Assembly (NCBI RefSeq): GCF_024172085.1 | Contig: NZ_JAMZDZ010000001.1 | Location: forward strand, 8,308,001 to 8,372,000 | DNA length: 64,000 bases | Direction of reading: 5' to 3' | Source of the DNA: Hamadaea flava | Lineage (GTDB): Bacteria; Actinomycetota; Actinomycetes; Mycobacteriales; Micromonosporaceae | Shown here: piece after piece, positions 23,160-30,640 of the stretch | How positions within the stretch are numbered: the stretch's first letter is position 1 | How the letters are laid out: every line of letters begins with the position of its first letter | The notes under the pieces: model-generated | The model's input: only the letters and a program-made list of their open reading frames with translations | Told to the model about the DNA's origin: nothing | Databases searched by the model: none | Translations under genes and position numbers: made by a program

Positions 23160-23216
23160 CCGGGCGGTGGCCACGAGGGCACAGGGTTCACGCTATCTTG
23201 TATTCAGCGGGTTATG

Positions 23217-23229
23217 TACTATCGCTGGT
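23217..23229 (+). promoter_or_regulatory. -10 box TACTAT, leaderless start of the CmtR-like gene
   Basis: TACTAT (23217-23222) is 7 nt before GTG 23230. TTGTAT (23198-23203) is nearby but too close for a normal -35. The AT-rich stretch 23194-23222 could hold an ArsR-type operator. Confidence 0.45.
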
Positions 23230-23580
23230 GTGAAGACCCTGGACGACGCCATCCCCGTGGCCACCCGAGGACAGGTGCTGGCCCGCTTCGGCCACGCCCT
23301 GTCCGACCCGACCCGGGCCCGGCTCCTGCTGGCGCTGCGTGACGGGCCGGCGTACCCGTCGGATCTGGCCGACGAGCTCGGAGTGTCGCGGCAGAGCCTG
23401 TCCAACCACCTCGCCTGCCTGCGCGGCTGCGGCCTCGTGGTCGCCGTCGCCGAGGGCCGCCGCTCGCGCTACGAGCTGTCCGACCAGCGGCTCGCCCACG
23501 CGCTGGGCGACCTGCTCGGCCTGGTGCTCGCGGTCGACCCGACCGTCTGCCCGCAAGCCGAGCGCGACGACTGCTGCTGA
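23230..23580 (+). CDS. ArsR/SmtB-family metal sensor, CmtR-like
   Basis: The 116-residue winged helix contains DPTRARLLLAL, GVSRQSLSNHLACLRGCGLVV and a C-terminal VDPTVC. Cys63, Cys67 and Cys107 match in spacing the Cys57/Cys61/Cys102 ligands of mycobacterial CmtR, a cadmium/lead sensor. The protein also ends in Asp-Asp-Cys-Cys. It therefore probably derepresses its operon when soft metals bind. Its TGA shares one base with the ATG of the CDF transporter, so the two are translationally coupled. The GTG start follows a -10 box without leader. Confidence 0.85.
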   Translation: MKTLDDAIPVATRGQVLARFGHALSDPTRARLLLALRDGPAYPSDLADELGVSRQSLSNHLACLRGCGLVVAVAEGRRSRYELSDQRLAHALGDLLGLVLAVDPTVCPQAERDDCC

Positions 23581-24272
23581 TGACGTCGCTGCCCGCCGCC
23601 GATCCCAGTCCGGCCGCGCGGCGCGCGACGCTGGTGCGCCGCGTCCGAATCCTGGTCGCCGCGACGATCGGCTACAACGTCATCGAGGCGATCGTGGCGG
23701 TCACCGCCGGGACGGTCGCCTCGTCGAGCGCCCTGATCGGGTTCGGCCTCGACTCGGTGATCGAGGTGTCGTCGGCCGCCGCGGTCGCCTGGCAGTTCTC
23801 GGCCGCGGACCACGAGCGCCGCGAGAAGGTCACCCTGCGGATCATCGCGGTCTCGTTCTTCGTCCTGGCCGCGTACGTGACGGCGGAGTCGCTGGTATCG
23901 CTCGTGGGCGGCGAACGCGCCGATCACTCCATGATCGGGATCGTCCTGGCGGCGGTGTCGCTCGCGGTCATGCCCGTGCTGTCGTACGCACAACGCAGCG
24001 CCGGTCGTGCGCTCGGTTCGGCGACCGCAGTGGCCGATTCGAAACAGACCCTGCTCTGCACCTATCTGTCGGCAGTGCTGCTGGTCGGCTTGGCAGCCAA
24101 CGCCGTGCTCGGCTGGTGGTGGGCCGATCCGGCCGCCGCGCTGGCGATCGCGGCGATCGCGGTCCGGGAAGGCGTGCAGACCTGGCGCGGCGACACCTGC
24201 TGCCCGCCGCCGGGAGCGTTGCTGGAGTCGTCGCCGCCGCGCTGCGCGGACGGTTGCTGCGATTCGCGATGA
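23580..24272 (+). CDS. CDF-like cation transporter with Cys-rich tail
   Basis: The 230-residue protein has about six hydrophobic helices. SSALIGFGLDSVIEVSSAAAV is the helix-2 metal site (D-x-x-x-E variant) and ALGSATAVADSKQTLLCTYLS is helix 5. The cytoplasmic beta domain of classical CDF proteins is absent. Instead the tail is TCCPPP ... CADGCCDSR, a likely soft-metal-binding segment. Expression with a CmtR-like sensor points to cadmium/lead-type efflux, which is inference. It is coupled to the regulator and converges on a second CDF gene. Confidence 0.8.
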   Translation: MTSLPAADPSPAARRATLVRRVRILVAATIGYNVIEAIVAVTAGTVASSSALIGFGLDSVIEVSSAAAVAWQFSAADHERREKVTLRIIAVSFFVLAAYVTAESLVSLVGGERADHSMIGIVLAAVSLAVMPVLSYAQRSAGRALGSATAVADSKQTLLCTYLSAVLLVGLAANAVLGWWWADPAAALAIAAIAVREGVQTWRGDTCCPPPGALLESSPPRCADGCCDSR

Positions 24273-24291
24273 CACCGCGCGGTCCGGCGCA

Positions 24292-25308
24292 TCAGTGAGA
24301 GTGATCCTCGGCGCTGTGCACGGGTCCGTGCGCGTCGTCGCAGTGCGGGGCGGTCGCCTGCTGCCCGATGGTCAGCAGGTCGTCGCCGACGTGATCCACC
24401 TGCAACGTGGTGTGGCTGATCTGGTGCCCGCGCAACAACGTCTCCAGCTGACCGCGTACGGCGTGACAGTCGCGGCCGGGATCGACCAGGACGTGCGCCG
24501 ACAAGGCAGGCTGACCGGAGGTGATCGTCCAGACGTGCAGGTCGTGCACCTCCACGACACCCGGTACGCCGGCCAGCTGATCGCCGATGGTGTCGGGGTG
24601 CAGGTCGGCGGGCGCGGCTTCGAGCAGGACGCGGCCGGAATCGCGCAGCAGGCCGATGCCGGCCTTGAGCATCAGGGCCACCACGATGAGCGTCGCGATG
24701 CCGTCGGCGCGGTCGAACCCGGTGAACACCATGACTAGGCCGGCGATCGCCGTCGCGATGAACGCGTACAAGTCGTTGAGGATGTGCTGGAACGCACCCT
24801 GGACGTTCAGGCTGGTCCGGTTGGCCTTGCTGATCGCCCAGGCGGCCGCGATGTTGATCGCGACGCCCGTGAGCGCGGTGGCCACGACGAGCCAGCCGTG
24901 GACCTCGGGCGGGTCGATCAGTCGGCGCACCGACTCGTAGCCGAGCCACCCCGCGAGGATGACCAGCGACAGGCCGTTGGCCTGCGCGGACAGGATCTCG
25001 GCGCGCTTGAGGCCGTAGGTGTAGCGGCCTTGCGCGGGGCGCGCGGCGAGGCGGATCGCGATCAACGCCAGCACGATCGACGCGGCGTCGGTCAGCATGT
25101 GCGCGGCGTCCGAGATCAACGCCAGCGATCGGGCGATCAGACCGATGACGACTTCGACGGCCATGAAGCCGCCGATCAGCGCCAAGGCCAGGGACAGCCA
25201 GCGGCGGTCGGCGTCGGCCGAGACTCCGTGGCTGTGGTCACCATGGCCGGTCTCGCCGTGGCTGTGGTCGTTGTGGCCGTGGCCGTGCTCATCCTTGGGG
25301 GTCGACAC
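24292..25308 (-). CDS. CDF cation transporter, CzcD/ZnT-like, His-rich N-terminus
   Basis: The 338-residue protein starts VSTPKDEHGHGHNDHSH, a histidine-rich metal-collecting segment. Helix-2 and helix-5 metal sites follow (SDAAHMLTDAASI and HILNDLYAF), then the cytoplasmic ferredoxin-like domain (VPGVVEVHDLHVWTI), and finally a His-rich tail. It should export Zn(II), Co(II) or Cd(II). A TACCAT -10 box on the minus strand (25322-25317) lies 8 nt before GTG 25308, giving another leaderless gene. Its tail faces the other CDF gene, 19 nt away. Confidence 0.88.
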   Translation of the reverse strand: MSTPKDEHGHGHNDHSHGETGHGDHSHGVSADADRRWLSLALALIGGFMAVEVVIGLIARSLALISDAAHMLTDAASIVLALIAIRLAARPAQGRYTYGLKRAEILSAQANGLSLVILAGWLGYESVRRLIDPPEVHGWLVVATALTGVAINIAAAWAISKANRTSLNVQGAFQHILNDLYAFIATAIAGLVMVFTGFDRADGIATLIVVALMLKAGIGLLRDSGRVLLEAAPADLHPDTIGDQLAGVPGVVEVHDLHVWTITSGQPALSAHVLVDPGRDCHAVRGQLETLLRGHQISHTTLQVDHVGDDLLTIGQQATAPHCDDAHGPVHSAEDHSH

Positions 25309-25481: not shown

Positions 25482-28106
25482 ATGCGCGAACGCCTCGTCA
25501 GCCGGTTCGGCCGGTCCCTGCTGCGGATGATGTTCGTGGTGGTGGCCGCGGCGGGACTGGTGTGGCCGGCGTCGGCGGCCCAGGCGCACGAAGTGGCCGG
25601 GGCCGGTGCCACGAACTTCCGGACCACGTTGTCGGCCCTGGCTCCGGCGGTTCCAGGCGTGAGCCTGTCGGTCGTGGAGAACGGGTCGCGGCTGGAGGCG
25701 ATCAACACCACCGACCAGGACCTGATCGTCCAGGGCTACACCGGTGAGCCGTTCGCGAAGATCGGCCCCGGCGGGGTGTTCGTCAACGACAACTCGCCGG
25801 CCACCTACCTCAACACCGACCGGTACGCGACCACGGTGGTGCCCGCCGGGGTGGACGGCAAGGGCGAACCCCGCTGGCGCAAGGTCTCCGGCGAGCACGT
25901 GTACCGGTGGCACGACCATCGCATCCACTGGATGCTCAAGACGCTGCCCGCCCCGGTGGCGGCCGATCCGGGTGCCGAACACCGGGTCAGCGACTGGAAG
26001 GTCGTCCTCGACCACGGCGGCCGCACCCTGACCGCGACCGGTGCGCTGGACTGGATTCCCGGCCCCTCGCCGACTCCCTGGCTGCTGCTGGCGATCGCGA
26101 TCGCCGTCGTGATCGCGGTCGGCGGACTCTTCCCGCGCCTGGGGTTCCGGCTGCTCGCTGCCGGAGCGGGGCTCATGCTGGCCGCCGACCTGCTGCACTC
26201 GGCCGGTGTCGCCGCCGTCGAGACGGGCAGCCTCGCCCAGCGCCTCGGCGCCCTGCTCGGCGCGGACGCCACCGCGCTCGTCGTCTGGCCCTTCGGCATC
26301 CTGGCCGCGTGGCGGCTGGCGTACCGGTCCCGGTTCGCCGCCGTGATCGCCGCCTGCGTCGGCGCGCTGCTCGGCTTCTCCATGGCCCTCGACGACGCCC
26401 CGGTGTGGTGGCGCTCCTCCGCGCCGACCGGCCTGAGCATGACCCTTGACCGGGCGACCGTCTCGACGGTGATCGGCGCGGCGGCCGGGCTGGTGGTCGC
26501 CGTGGCCCTGATGAGCCTGCGCTCGGTCCGGCAGCGGATCGACGCCGCCGCAGCAAGCGCCGCCGTCGGCGCGGGCTCGGCCGCAGGCGACGAGTCGGCT
26601 GTGGGCGACGGGTCGGCTGCGGGCTCGGCGCCGGCCGGTCTGGCCACTGTGGATGGTTCGAAGGACGACTCGTCGAGTCCGGTGGCGGCCCTTCCGGCGG
26701 CCCGGGCCGGCGAGGCCGCTGTCCTCGCCGCCGCCGACAGCGCGGCGACTGCCGACCGCGCTGAGGTGAGCGAGCGTGCCGATGATGCGGGCCGCGGCGA
26801 TGCGCCCCACGGCGGTAGTGCCGTCGCGTCCGATGGTGGCGGTGCTGACGGGGACGGCGTGGGAGCGGGCGCGTCTGGGGTGCCCCGTCGCAGCGTCGCG
26901 GGCTACCTGGCCGTCGGCGGGGTCGGAGTCGTCGCCGGCACGGGGATCGGCATCGGCCTGCGCTCGGCCGACACCCCGGTGGTGGCGTCGGCCGCCGGTC
27001 CCGCGCTGTCCGACGTCGGCGCGGGCCGGGTGGCGTACTTCGGTTCGCGGCAGTCCGGCATCGCGGTCCCGACTCAGCCGCAGGCGCACAGCTGGGTCGC
27101 CGCGTTCGACCTGCTCGACGGCGTCGACGCCAAGGCGTTGCAGGGCTTGCTGCGGCAGTGGTCGGCGGCGGCCGCGCGAATGGCCGAGGGGCAGGGCACA
27201 GGCCAGCCCGACGACCATGTGGTGATCGGATCCGGGCCGTGCGCGCTGACCGTCACCTTCGGGTTCGGGCCGAGTCTGTTCGGCAAGGCGGGCATCCCGG
27301 CGGACGCCCGCCCGGCGGCCTTGGCCCCGCTGCCCGCGTTCACCGGGGATCGCCTCGATCCCGCCGCCAGCCACGGCGATCTCGGGGTGATCGTCGCCGC
27401 CGACGACCCGCTCGTGGTGTTCCACGCGGCCCGGGTGCTGCGGCGTATCGCCGGCCCGGTCGCGCGGCTGCGCTGGGGGCAGACCGGGTTCGCGGCGACT
27501 CCGGGTGCGACCGCTCCGGGCAGCACCGGCCGTAACCTGATGGGGCAGGTCGACGGCACGAACAATCCCAAGCCGGCCGACCCCGACTTCGCCACGAAGG
27601 TGTTCGTCTCCGGCCACGATCAGCCGGCCTGGCTCCGCAACGGCTCCTACCTCGTGGTACGCCGCATCCGGATGATCCTCGACGACTGGGACGGGTTGAC
27701 CCTCGACGCGCAGCAGAAGGTCATCGGCCGCCGGAAGGACACCGGTGCACCGTTGTCCGGCGGGCAGGAGACCACCCCTGCCAACTACGGCACCACTCAG
27801 CCCGACGGCTCGCCGGCGATCCCGGTCACCGCGCACATCCGGCTGGCCGCACCGGCGTTCAACAACGGGGCGGCGATGCTGCGGCGGGGCTGGTCCTACT
27901 CCGACGGCGACGAGGCCGGGCTGCTTTTCCTGGCGTACCAGGCTGATCCGCGGCGTGGCTTCATCCCGGTCCAGCAGCGGCTGGCCGGTAACGACGCCCT
28001 GTCGAAGTTCATCCGCCATGAAGCCAGCGCGTTGTTCGCGATACCGGGCGGCGTACCGGACGGCGGATACGTCGGGCAGGACCTGTTCGCCGGGAACGCG
28101 TCATGA
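25482..28106 (+). CDS. Membrane-anchored DyP-type heme peroxidase fusion with internal Tat motif
   Basis: The 874-residue protein is built of several parts. A Sec signal peptide (1-35) precedes an extracytoplasmic domain (36-190) with the motif HDHRIHWM. Five membrane helices (about 200-346) and an Ala/Gly/Asp-rich linker (347-465) follow. Then come a twin arginine (469-470, PRRSVAGYLAVGG), a sixth hydrophobic segment (475-497), and an EfeB-like DyP domain (505-874). DyP residues are visible: GQVDGTNNP with Asp691, proximal TAHIRLA with His785, and distal RRGWSY with Arg801. Basic residues follow helices 1, 3 and 5, placing the linker and RR inside. The ATG has an AAAGG RBS and overlaps the cupredoxin gene by ATGA. 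Confidence 0.8.
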   Translation: MRERLVSRFGRSLLRMMFVVVAAAGLVWPASAAQAHEVAGAGATNFRTTLSALAPAVPGVSLSVVENGSRLEAINTTDQDLIVQGYTGEPFAKIGPGGVFVNDNSPATYLNTDRYATTVVPAGVDGKGEPRWRKVSGEHVYRWHDHRIHWMLKTLPAPVAADPGAEHRVSDWKVVLDHGGRTLTATGALDWIPGPSPTPWLLLAIAIAVVIAVGGLFPRLGFRLLAAGAGLMLAADLLHSAGVAAVETGSLAQRLGALLGADATALVVWPFGILAAWRLAYRSRFAAVIAACVGALLGFSMALDDAPVWWRSSAPTGLSMTLDRATVSTVIGAAAGLVVAVALMSLRSVRQRIDAAAASAAVGAGSAAGDESAVGDGSAAGSAPAGLATVDGSKDDSSSPVAALPAARAGEAAVLAAADSAATADRAEVSERADDAGRGDAPHGGSAVASDGGGADGDGVGAGASGVPRRSVAGYLAVGGVGVVAGTGIGIGLRSADTPVVASAAGPALSDVGAGRVAYFGSRQSGIAVPTQPQAHSWVAAFDLLDGVDAKALQGLLRQWSAAAARMAEGQGTGQPDDHVVIGSGPCALTVTFGFGPSLFGKAGIPADARPAALAPLPAFTGDRLDPAASHGDLGVIVAADDPLVVFHAARVLRRIAGPVARLRWGQTGFAATPGATAPGSTGRNLMGQVDGTNNPKPADPDFATKVFVSGHDQPAWLRNGSYLVVRRIRMILDDWDGLTLDAQQKVIGRRKDTGAPLSGGQETTPANYGTTQPDGSPAIPVTAHIRLAAPAFNNGAAMLRRGWSYSDGDEAGLLFLAYQADPRRGFIPVQQRLAGNDALSKFIRHEASALFAIPGGVPDGGYVGQDLFAGNAS

Positions 28107-28555
28107 GCCGCCGGCCGATCGGCGTACTCGTCGCCGTCCTCACCCTGGCGAGCGCGGCCGGGTGCGCGGTGTGGGGGACCGAGGGCGGTCCCGGCGGCGC
28201 GGGCGCGGCACTGCCGACCGCCACCGCCTCGGTCGCACCGTCGCCTGCCGTCGCTGTCAAGGGTTCCGACGGCGTACAGCGCATCGAGGTCGCCATCGGT
28301 GACGACCTGCGACTGCATCCCGATGTCGTGCGGGCCACCACCGGCACGATCGAGATCACCTTCCGCAACACGGGTGTCACCCCGCACGACATCAGCGTGG
28401 ACACCGTTCCCGGGGTCGACGGCGGCAACGTCAACGGCGGGCAGACCAAGACCGTCACTGTCACGGTGACGCAGCCCGGGACCTATCCGATGCCCTGCGC
28501 ATACCATGTGACGTCAGGAATGCAAGGCACCTTGGAAGTCGCCACGCCGAGCTGA
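28103..28555 (+). CDS. Cupredoxin lipoprotein (EfeO-like copper-binding domain)
   Basis: The 150-residue product has a lipoprotein signal with Cys21 in SAAGC, a Pro/Ala-rich spacer and a single cupredoxin domain. Type 1 copper ligands are complete: His95 (TPHD), Cys132 (MPC), His135 (AYH) and Met140 (SGM). It would sit on the outer face of the membrane and transfer electrons. The 4-nt overlap with the DyP fusion suggests the two act together, as the cupredoxin domain of EfeO does with EfeB peroxidase in ferrous iron uptake. No EfeU permease is present, so the pair may serve peroxide or copper chemistry instead. Confidence 0.85.
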   Translation: MSRRPIGVLVAVLTLASAAGCAVWGTEGGPGGAGAALPTATASVAPSPAVAVKGSDGVQRIEVAIGDDLRLHPDVVRATTGTIEITFRNTGVTPHDISVDTVPGVDGGNVNGGQTKTVTVTVTQPGTYPMPCAYHVTSGMQGTLEVATPS

Positions 28556-28639
28556 TCCTTGTGCCGGGGCCGTAAGGTGGCTACGGTTCGGGTTGATCGC
28601 CCGTATCACGTCGAACCATCCTTATCGGAGGGATACCGG

Positions 28640-29311
28640 GTGCAATACCGGCCGCAGCGCCTTGACGACCGTGACGCCTACCGTGGCCGCCGTCGCGCGC
28701 CTGCACCGCCGCGCCGCCGCTACGTGGCGGTCTCGCTCACCGCTCTCGCCGGTGCGGCGATCGCCGCCACGGCCGTCGGCACCTTGTTGCCCGACAACAA
28801 AGACGATCACCTCGGCGCCGAAGGCCCGGCCTGGCCCACTCAGGCCGACCATGAGCGTACGCAGGCAGCCGAGCTGACCAGCCGGCAGAGCCGTTCCAGC
28901 GGATCGGTGACGGTCGCCGACACGGCGTCGTGGGTGCTGCCGATGCGCGACTACGAACTCGGCTCCGCCGCCGGCAATGGGGCCGATCTCGTCATCGGTG
29001 AGGGGACCCCGTTTGCGGCGGTCCACGCGGGCACCGTGCTGGTCGCGGAGTGGCGTGGCAGCTACGGAAACATGATCATGATCGATCACGGTGACGGCGT
29101 CGTCGTCCTCTACGGGCACGCCTCGCACCTGCTGGTCAAGCCGGGCGACAAGGTCGCCGCCGGTCAGACCATCGGGCTGGTCGGCAACACCGGCCGCTCC
29201 GCCGGACCACACCTGCACCTGGAGGTCCACGTCGACGGCCGCCCCGTCGGGGCGTCGGACTGGTTCAAGGATCGTGGCGTCAACCTTCAGCTGCAGATCC
29301 AGGGCCTCTGA
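28640..29311 (+). CDS. M23-like (LytM) envelope protein with missing zinc ligand
   Basis: The 223-residue product has a basic cytoplasmic start, one membrane helix (about 32-52), a linker and a LytM domain. The later ligands are present: YGHAS and PHLHLEVHVDG. In the first motif, normally HxGxD, the sequence is GNGAD (112-116) with Gly at the His place, so the peptidase is probably inactive. Such degenerate LytM proteins activate amidases elsewhere. GTG 28640 is chosen because GGAGGGA lies 6-7 nt upstream. The stop directly abuts the stop of the convergent SHOCT gene. Confidence 0.8.
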   Translation: MQYRPQRLDDRDAYRGRRRAPAPPRRRYVAVSLTALAGAAIAATAVGTLLPDNKDDHLGAEGPAWPTQADHERTQAAELTSRQSRSSGSVTVADTASWVLPMRDYELGSAAGNGADLVIGEGTPFAAVHAGTVLVAEWRGSYGNMIMIDHGDGVVVLYGHASHLLVKPGDKVAAGQTIGLVGNTGRSAGPHLHLEVHVDGRPVGASDWFKDRGVNLQLQIQGL

Positions 29312-29545
29312 TCAGCTGACCGGACGGCTGTGGTCGGTCAGCCGGGCCCGAGCGTTCGCGTACGCGACCTCGTCGATGTCGCCGTGGGCGTAGCGGCGGT
29401 CGAGGATCTCCAGCGGGGTGTCGCGGCGGGCCGTGTTCTGCGGGAGCAGCCGGACGACCGCCCAGACCGCGAGCGCGATCAACCCGGTCCACAGCAGTGG
29501 CATCAGCATCATCCACCAGCCGCCGAATCCGTATCCGTACATCAT
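29312..29545 (-). CDS. Small membrane protein with SHOCT domain
   Basis: The 77-residue product begins MMYGYGFGGWWMM, has one membrane helix (about 14-36) and ends with a SHOCT motif, EILDRRYAHGDIDEVAYANA. GGGAGG 6 nt before ATG 29545 is a strong RBS. Small SHOCT membrane proteins often lie in copper or other metal loci, consistent with this neighbourhood, but their action is not established. Confidence 0.8.
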   Translation of the reverse strand: MMYGYGFGGWWMMLMPLLWTGLIALAVWAVVRLLPQNTARRDTPLEILDRRYAHGDIDEVAYANARARLTDHSRPVS

Positions 29546-29679
29546 GACGGGCCTCCCAGCCTGCACTTCCACCTTCAGCGTCCGCCGGGTCGCCGACCGG
29601 CGTCAGGGGCGAAAGGCCCGGCGCACGGGACCGGTCGGCCCCAGATGCGGCGGTTCGACGGTGTGCGTATCCTGTCGCG

Positions 29680-30069
29680 GTGCACCGGATGATCGAGAAG
29701 GCGCGGACGGCTCTGCCGTTGCGGCTGCTGCTGATCATCCTTCTGCTGGTCGGGCTCGCGTACGCGACGGGTCGGCATTGCGCCGACGACGGTGTCGTCG
29801 CCGATTCGACGGCGACCGTGGCCGGGCACGATCATCTGGCCGTCACGCTCGGGCAGGATCTGCACGACGACCCGCTCACCCCCGGTACGCCGGGTGAGCT
29901 GCTCGGTCTGTGCATCACGATGCTGGCCGCCCTCGCCGTGGCGATGGTCCTGCTGACCGGACCTGGCCGGCGATGGGCCGGGGTGTCGCTGCCCCGAGTG
30001 CTGCCGGCCGCCGTCGCGTCGTTCGGCCGTCCGCCGGTCCTGTCGCAGCTGGGCGTTTCGCGTACGTAG
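29680..30069 (+). CDS. DUF6153-like membrane protein
   Basis: The 129-residue product has an N-terminal helix (RLLLIILLLVGLAYATG), a His/Asp-containing outside segment (GRHCADD, AGHDH, DLHDD), a second helix (LGLCITMLAALAVAMVLL) and a tail ending RPPVLSQLGVSRT. The layout fits DUF6153 proteins of actinobacteria. TATCCT (29668-29673) is 6 nt before GTG 29680, so it looks leaderless. Metal binding by the His/Asp segment is speculation supported by neighbours. Confidence 0.65.
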   Translation: MHRMIEKARTALPLRLLLIILLLVGLAYATGRHCADDGVVADSTATVAGHDHLAVTLGQDLHDDPLTPGTPGELLGLCITMLAALAVAMVLLTGPGRRWAGVSLPRVLPAAVASFGRPPVLSQLGVSRT

Positions 30070-30115
30070 GAGAACCACACCCGTCACCGGTTGTCGTTTC
30101 TCCGAAAGGCCCTTC

Positions 30116-30640
30116 GTGCATACCCGTACGCCGGCCGGGCTGCTGCTCGGCGTCCTGTTCCTGCTGTCCGCGTGCGCGCCCGCGACCGGCGACGCACCGC
30201 CGTCCGCTCCGGAACCGAAGTCGGCCGATGCCGCTTTCGTCCGGGCCATGGTCGCGTACCACGACCACAACCTGGCCGTCCTGGCCCTGGCCGACGCCCG
30301 GGTGTCTGATGTCGAGGTCAAGACGATCGCGGCGCAGACCGCCGATCTGCAACGCCTGCAACGGACGACGATGGTGACGCTGCTGGCCGGGTGGGCGCAG
30401 CCCACCGAGGTCCCCGCCACCGCCGACAGCCATCCGGCCGAACTCGCCGATCTGCGGGCGGCCGCGTTCGACCGTGCGCTGGTCGCCGCTCTCGTCACTC
30501 ACAACGACACCGCCGTCCGGTACGCCCGCAGTGCGCTGGCGCAGGACTTGTCGGACAAGATCCGCGGCGTCGCCGTCTCGGTCGACCGTGGGCTGTCGGC
30601 CGAGAACGCTGCGCTGCGCGCGCTCCTGACCCGCCTCTGA
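30116..30640 (+). CDS. DUF305-like lipoprotein
   Basis: The 174-residue lipoprotein has Cys20 in LLSACAP and a helical domain with AAFVRAMVAYHDHNLAVLAL, the DUF305 signature with a His pair, repeated weakly in VAALVTHNDTAVRYA. DUF305 proteins are ferritin-like-fold candidates common beside copper resistance genes. GTG 30116 has GAAAGG 6 nt upstream. The gene follows the DUF6153-like gene by 46 nt. Confidence 0.75.
   Translation: MHTRTPAGLLLGVLFLLSACAPATGDAPPSAPEPKSADAAFVRAMVAYHDHNLAVLALADARVSDVEVKTIAAQTADLQRLQRTTMVTLLAGWAQPTEVPATADSHPAELADLRAAAFDRALVAALVTHNDTAVRYARSALAQDLSDKIRGVAVSVDRGLSAENAALRALLTRL

Follow-up and report, generated by a model that had tools for sequence, protein, structure and literature searches.

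A DtpA-type heme peroxidase fused to a five-helix membrane protein in Hamadaea flava and its relatives, with predicted dependence on both Sec and Tat export

Within a 64,000-nucleotide stretch of the Hamadaea flava genome (hereafter the window; positions 8308001–8372000 of a single-contig, 8.86 Mb genome), one gene on the plus strand (25482..28106) encodes a signal peptide, an orphan ectodomain, five transmembrane helices and a long linker, followed in the same frame by an internal twin-arginine translocation (Tat) signal and a heme peroxidase domain of the dye-decolorizing peroxidase (DyP) superfamily that belongs to the DtpA type. We consider it probable (roughly 0.8) that the product is a dual-targeted membrane protein, the N-terminal half (N-half) of which would be inserted by the general secretory (Sec) pathway, while the fused peroxidase would have retained its own Tat signal. 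A preliminary description of this DNA, made from its letters alone, had proposed such an enzyme; the frame, coordinates, residues and domain order that it gave were confirmed as a whole, and its interpretation was borne out in part.

The open frame starts with ATG at 25482 and runs for 874 residues to its stop (residue numbers below are those of this protein; L and G numbers label loci and genomes). The signal peptide (residues 1–35, 25482..25586) ends in SAAQA, and cleavage at the site predicted by eye would make His36 the first residue of the mature chain; the Ala-His junction recurs in all 14 fusions described below. After it come the ectodomain (residues 36–196, 25587..26069), helices 1–5 (approximately residues 198–346, 26073..26519) and a low-complexity linker of 122 residues (347–468, 26520..26885) predicted to be cytoplasmic. 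The twin arginine Arg469-Arg470 (26886..26891) lies in PRRSVAGYLAVGG and precedes helix 6 (residues 473–494, 26898..26963), the weakly hydrophobic h-region of the putative Tat signal, closed by Arg494. A Pfam scan of the protein recognized Dyp_perox_N (524–670) and Dyp_perox_C (683–858), which together mark a peroxidase domain (27051..28055) extending to about residue 869, and yielded no further domain at E ≤ 0.1 anywhere outside them.

The fusion gene is no accident of assembly, because 14 of 300 genomes from the window's family, in four genera, encode the same domain order in one open frame. They comprise three of the four listed genomes of the window's genus and eight, one and two genomes of genera g17, g28 and g40, respectively, the genus and family names of numbered genomes being inferred from named loci with identical sequences (L005–L011). 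Those seven loci, from two Hamadaea, four Catellatospora and one Micromonosporaceae metagenome-assembled genome (MAG), were the ones with both halves among 80 relatives kept from 182 found in a scan of a genome collection, and a comparison by the fusion protein puts Hamadaea MAGs closest among the named relatives, with 79 and 76% over the best segment. The N-half was found in 252 of the 300 family genomes, and a DyP match at E ≤ 1e-88 in exactly the 14 fusion genomes, a limit chosen afterwards, once the best unfused DyP had shown 1e-84. Across 193 loci examined (repeats counted), the halves are fused in 37; 87 carry the N-half and none of these has the two halves as separate neighbouring genes, with no DyP nearby in 50 of the 87, where the flank was often only 1.5 kb. 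A class-wide scan of 394 genomes returned an N-half match in 27, three of them from the window's family, and none of the 29 loci drawn from these matches had a DyP match, the window gene aside (7 of the 37 listed matches gave no locus). Among 87 matching plasmid records, none reaches 80% coverage of the protein.

Phylogenetic analyses of the two halves gave matching pictures. The 14 fused DyP domains form one clade (support 99/97) beside 25 stand-alone DtpA-type DyPs, whose sources are chiefly Streptomyces and Kitasatospora, and separately from 20 further DyPs found in the window's family, while the 14 fused N-halves likewise form one clade (support 100/98) against 32 stand-alone rows. Since each half forms a single clade, one old fusion, inherited since, probably gave rise to all of them; that stand-alone versions of each half occur elsewhere fits a fusion and does not refute it. 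The linker that joins the halves ranges from 16 to 136 residues across the 14 homologues, the shortest, in L098, leaving only 16 residues between helix 5 and the twin arginine. The 1158 linker codons include no stop, where 13.3 would be expected after base shuffling of the linkers, in a comparison of related sequences in which loci counted as fusions were open by definition, and the third codon position is the most changed in 19 of 19 close pairs (linker plus flanking codons). This absence of stops and the dominance of third-position changes argue for a single frame on which selection acts at the protein level. Gaps in the linker alignment are multiples of three in 46 of 69 cases, to which we give little weight given unsure gap placement and the inclusion of flanks.

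Five hydrophobic segments separate the ectodomain from the linker in 13 of the 14 homologues by hydropathy (in L089 the peak picker merged segments 3 and 4), and a weak extra peak falls inside the ectodomain in seven. The hydropathy profile used a fixed scale and was supplemented by a position-dependent calculation of insertion energy, the parameters of which were checked only on Ala/Leu/Arg test strings. Merging hydropathy and AlphaFold2 by hand places the helices at about residues 198–216, 221–246, 257–281, 284–304 and 326–346; the AlphaFold2 model of the full protein has helices at 198–216, 221–246, 251–281 (broken), 284–312, 320–367 and 471–489, at a mean predicted local distance difference test score (pLDDT) of 68.6 and a predicted template-modelling score of 0.48, with the N-half covered by only 8 of 35 alignment rows and the linker mostly below pLDDT 50. 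With loop borders placed by hand, the predicted inner loops hold on average 2.07, 1.93 and 2.86 Lys/Arg over the 14 homologues and no Asp/Glu, the first outer loop 1.07 Lys/Arg and 1.07 Asp/Glu, and the second 2.00 Lys/Arg and 0.86 Asp/Glu. Because the ectodomain would lie outside and an odd number of helices follows it, the linker with its twin arginine is predicted to lie in the cytoplasm, in agreement with the positive charge of the inner loops. On the helices, their basic inner loops and the cytoplasmic side of the linker, the preliminary description is supported.

The internal twin arginine is kept in all 14 homologues, always as V-x-R-R ahead of a Gly/Ala-rich helix, and is followed after one to three residues by at least 14 uncharged residues. 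In a single protein the motif would be a weak signal, since shuffling the linker of the window protein puts a twin arginine into the last 10 residues in about 4% of cases; its conservation in 14 of 14 takes it beyond chance. The helix behind it has a positive insertion energy in every homologue (+0.82 to +1.96) and is the least favourable of the six in 11, while helices 1, 3 and 5 are negative in all 14. The same script gave +0.89 for the signal of Streptomyces lividans DtpA, and helix 6 is in this respect like the Tat-dependent third helix (TM3) of actinobacterial Rieske proteins, for which +0.25 to +1.29 was reported from a public server (PMC5449189, Table 3). Even the shortest linker exceeds the minimum of about eight residues that a tethered Tat signal needs after the last Sec helix, as given in the same source (PMC5449189). 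The window genome contains one TatC gene, and stand-alone DyPs carry a twin-arginine signal in 59 of 60 cases, the exception (L017) being cut by a contig end and 13 of 73 loci being left out because the start of the DyP domain was not found by pattern. The leading signal peptide, by comparison, has a mean insertion energy of −0.28; being more hydrophobic and preceding a polytopic domain, it would be of the Sec type.

The peroxidase domain appears intact by sequence, and peroxidase activity and heme binding are predicted. Asp691 (27552–27554), His785 (27834–27836) and Arg801 (27882–27884), which we take to be the GxxDG aspartate, the proximal histidine and the distal arginine of DyPs, do not vary across the 35 sequences aligned, of which 8 are fusions and 27 stand-alone DyPs. 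The preliminary description had called the domain EfeB-like, an identity we reject in favour of DtpA: the NCBIfam model TIGR01412 scores 375.4 bits against a cut-off of 428, and the best solved relative is SCO3963 (4gt2; 380 bits over residues 452–871, twin arginine aligned on twin arginine), which we take to be the S. coelicolor counterpart of DtpA (SLI_4211). S. lividans DtpA follows with 372 bits, a Frankia DyP with 283, and SCO2276 and chains named deferrochelatase with at most 254; the top Foldseek match is again DtpA (6gzw, 52% identity), and the tree places the fusions on the same side. The window genome carries another DyP elsewhere, at 44–46% identity (L002/L186). Agarase carrying the DtpA signal leaves S. 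lividans cells only when tatC is intact; the cleavage site of this signal is weak, the authors suggest possible membrane anchoring, and the DtpA operon holds copper genes (PMC4736821).

A copper connection is also suggested on the 3′ side of the fusion, where a gene for a cupredoxin lipoprotein (28103..28555, plus strand; lipobox by eye) begins within the fusion stop (ATGA). In all 13 fusion genomes with downstream DNA examined (every one but G087), a related cupredoxin lies 3′ of the fusion. Among 11 junctions inspected, ATGA recurs in eight (the window, L005–L010 and L115), L011 shows GTGA instead, and the end of the fusion gene encloses the cupredoxin ATG in L117 and L118. In one genome from another family of the class (G396; L159:1046-2535), a stand-alone N-half overlaps a homologous cupredoxin lipoprotein gene (TGATG) with no DyP. 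The pair of N-half and cupredoxin can therefore exist without the peroxidase, and from this one locus the two seem to have received the DyP, Tat signal included, as a module set between them. The overlap itself seems to point to copper or peroxide chemistry.

Taken as a dual-targeted chain, the protein would be built in two steps. Sec would export the ectodomain and insert helices 1–5, leaving the C-terminal part in the cytoplasm, where the DyP domain would fold and take up heme b. Tat would then recognize Arg469-Arg470 in the tethered chain, insert helix 6 and move the folded peroxidase outside, in line with the handover reported for the Rieske protein and Sco3746 (PMC5449189). There the enzyme would stay anchored beside the ectodomain and the cupredoxin lipoprotein, its most likely task, judged from kinship and gene position, being peroxide-driven redox chemistry at the surface in which copper or the cupredoxin would be oxidized.

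Several observations weigh against this scheme. The longer outer loop 2 is as rich in Lys/Arg as inner loop 2, and both helix 2 (positive insertion energy in 13 of 14) and helix 4 (10 of 14) are marginal. Positive charges after the Tat helix are a second Sec-release feature (PMC5449189), and the 25 residues after helix 6 contain three to five Lys/Arg in L011, L097 and L098 and only one in the other 11. The leading signal peptide itself has a twin arginine before its hydrophobic stretch in 10 of the 14 fusions (L005, L007–L011, L090, L091, L097 and L098), leaving the window copy, L006, L088 and L089 without one. The DyP tree carries a long-branch warning for F_L097 and F_L098, and the oxidase domain of GlxA (PF09118), the partner of DtpA in S. 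lividans, occurs in 4 of 20 genomes searched, 2 of them among 10 fusion genomes, and was not found in that of the window, which rules out GlxA as a general target of the fused DyP. Finally, an in-frame GTG stands two codons before the twin arginine in 10 of the 14 homologues.

This GTG (26880–26882 in the window copy, where a sequence upstream agrees with GGAGG at 4 of 5 positions) raises the alternative, improbable in our view and still the strongest of those considered, that one frame makes two products, the N-half and a free, Tat-exported DtpA arising from the internal start or from proteolysis in the linker, with the dual-targeted chain minor or transient. Both halves do exist as separate proteins elsewhere, and the low pLDDT of most of the linker fits this alternative. 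Conservation of the start is ruled out, however, by GTA in L005, GTC in L006 and its absence from L088 and L089, although it could still serve in the window copy, and the valine that it encodes may have another reason, as the SCO3963 signal has V-S-R-R too. Two products also sit poorly with the short L098 linker and with a frame maintained through the linker.

Less probable still is that Sec does everything, helix 6 being an ordinary last helix and the DyP domain crossing unfolded to acquire its heme outside, with the twin arginine a relic. A hydropathy peak does mark helix 6 in every one of the 14 homologues, and the charges behind it are sparse in 11. Yet a relic would hardly be kept in every homologue beside an otherwise hypervariable linker, the insertion energy of the helix is unfavourable throughout, and the related DtpA signal is Tat-dependent by experiment (PMC4736821). 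That the peroxidase stays and works in the cytoplasm behind a re-entrant or non-inserted helix is very unlikely: the low hydrophobicity of helix 6 would allow it, but the conserved twin arginine, the kinship with DtpA and an overlapping partner gene whose lipobox marks an outside protein all speak otherwise. Sequential Sec and Tat export thus remains the reading we favour.

The ectodomain at the head of the fusion is an orphan. Folded alone, it gives a confident, beta-rich AlphaFold2 model (pLDDT 85.8 from 8 sequences) that matched no PDB fold in Foldseek at E ≤ 0.001, and no CopC or other named copper domain was recognized either by Pfam at E ≤ 0.1 or among PDB folds at E ≤ 0.001. Its motif W-H-D-H-R-I-H-W-M (residues 143–151, 25908..25934) includes Trp143, His144, Asp145, Arg147 and Trp150, which are invariant in nine of nine aligned rows. 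A histidine after the predicted cleavage site together with W-H-D-H-R-x-H-W resembles histidine-rich copper sites, and the motif histidines and the N-terminal His36 are possible metal ligands. Copper binding by the ectodomain is a guess, because a paralogue in the same genome has Lys and Arg in place of the second and third motif histidines.

That paralogue (L126:7807-8856; G000:C1, ~5.765 Mb) is a stand-alone N-half, 38–40% identical to that of the fusion. Proteins of this kind, for which we found no family name, share a signal peptide, a histidine after the predicted cleavage site, the W-H-D motif and five helices. The gene for the paralogue neighbours those for an AhpC/TSA peroxiredoxin, a DsbA-like protein, MauE, a sigma-70-type factor, a zinc-finger protein (zf-HC2) and CopC-CopD; by eye, DsbA-like and MauE-like genes also stand beside the N-half in L119, L122 and L124, and CopCD in L119 and L122. 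More distant relatives in L148, L150 and L151 have two tandem ectodomain matches, and that of L148 seemingly a single C-terminal helix (by eye). Within helix 2 (26142–26219), an Asp-x-x-His that could be a redox or proton site occurs in all 14 fusions and in stand-alone proteins from outside the family (L131, L133 and L137), and is absent from the paralogue. Upstream of the fusion, the opposite strand (23167–25308) encodes an ArsR-type regulator, a small cation-efflux protein and a second cation-diffusion protein; downstream (28559–30640) lie genes for an M23 peptidase, a small SHOCT-like protein on the minus strand (below the cut-off) and a DUF305 protein that weakly matches CopM.

We raise a tentative and, on balance, doubtful possibility: that the ectodomain and five helices form an undescribed copper or redox module working physically with peroxidases, and that in the fusion clade a DtpA-type DyP was inserted between this module and its cupredoxin partner, giving a single chain in which a metal-binding head exported by Sec and a heme enzyme exported by Tat would, together with a membrane core, act as a surface relay for electrons or copper. 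Less speculatively, dual targeting of the fusion, if true, would bring a heme peroxidase family into the small group of proteins dependent on Sec and Tat in turn, and would imply that Tat can still take up a substrate when five helices and an exported domain already hold it in place. The natural linkers offer a ready series for asking how Tat finds a tethered signal. The fusion also draws attention to the N-half as a common actinobacterial membrane family with an ectodomain that lacks a Pfam domain or known fold, a family linked to copper and peroxide genes through its genomic neighbourhood in the loci examined.

Compared with known systems, the stand-alone N-half proteins end after helix 5, where the fusion continues into the linker and DyP. 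EfeB and the deferrochelatases share the superfamily, the fold and a Tat signal, and are set apart by their lower scores against the domain. DtpA of Streptomyces, an A-type DyP, is closest by sequence, structure and tree, and has in common with the fusion a long n-region before V-x-R-R and copper-related surroundings; it is, however, a free protein with an N-terminal Tat signal, whereas the DyP of the window is the C terminus of a five-helix protein with no Sco or PCuAC match among nine window proteins scanned and no GlxA-type domain found in its genome.

Finally, an internal Tat signal in polytopic Sec/Tat proteins was described in 2017 for the Rieske protein, Sco3746 and the MLMS-1 polyferredoxin, with YkuE-like proteins proposed (PMC5449189), and the claim of the preliminary description to a new kind of dual-targeted polytopic enzyme was therefore too strong. 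In the literature searched we found no DyP among reported dual-targeted proteins, and PMC5449189, PMC7317946 and PMC13186574 do not use the word ‘peroxidase’ in their main texts; the web-page candidate lists of PMC5449189 lay outside the search and may include a DyP. The shared features are Sec-type helices, a cytoplasmic loop, a twin arginine, a last helix of low hydrophobicity and a folded cofactor domain on the outside (here predicted), and some members are, like ours, natural fusions whose two parts occur elsewhere as separate proteins. On the other hand, the helices and the cofactor domain, a heme peroxidase, are different here, and the chain begins with a signal peptide and an ectodomain, so that the Tat helix comes after five helices, or six if the signal is counted. 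The protein thus looks like a further family within the known dual Sec-Tat kind, distinguished by its heme peroxidase and by a leading, exported ectodomain.

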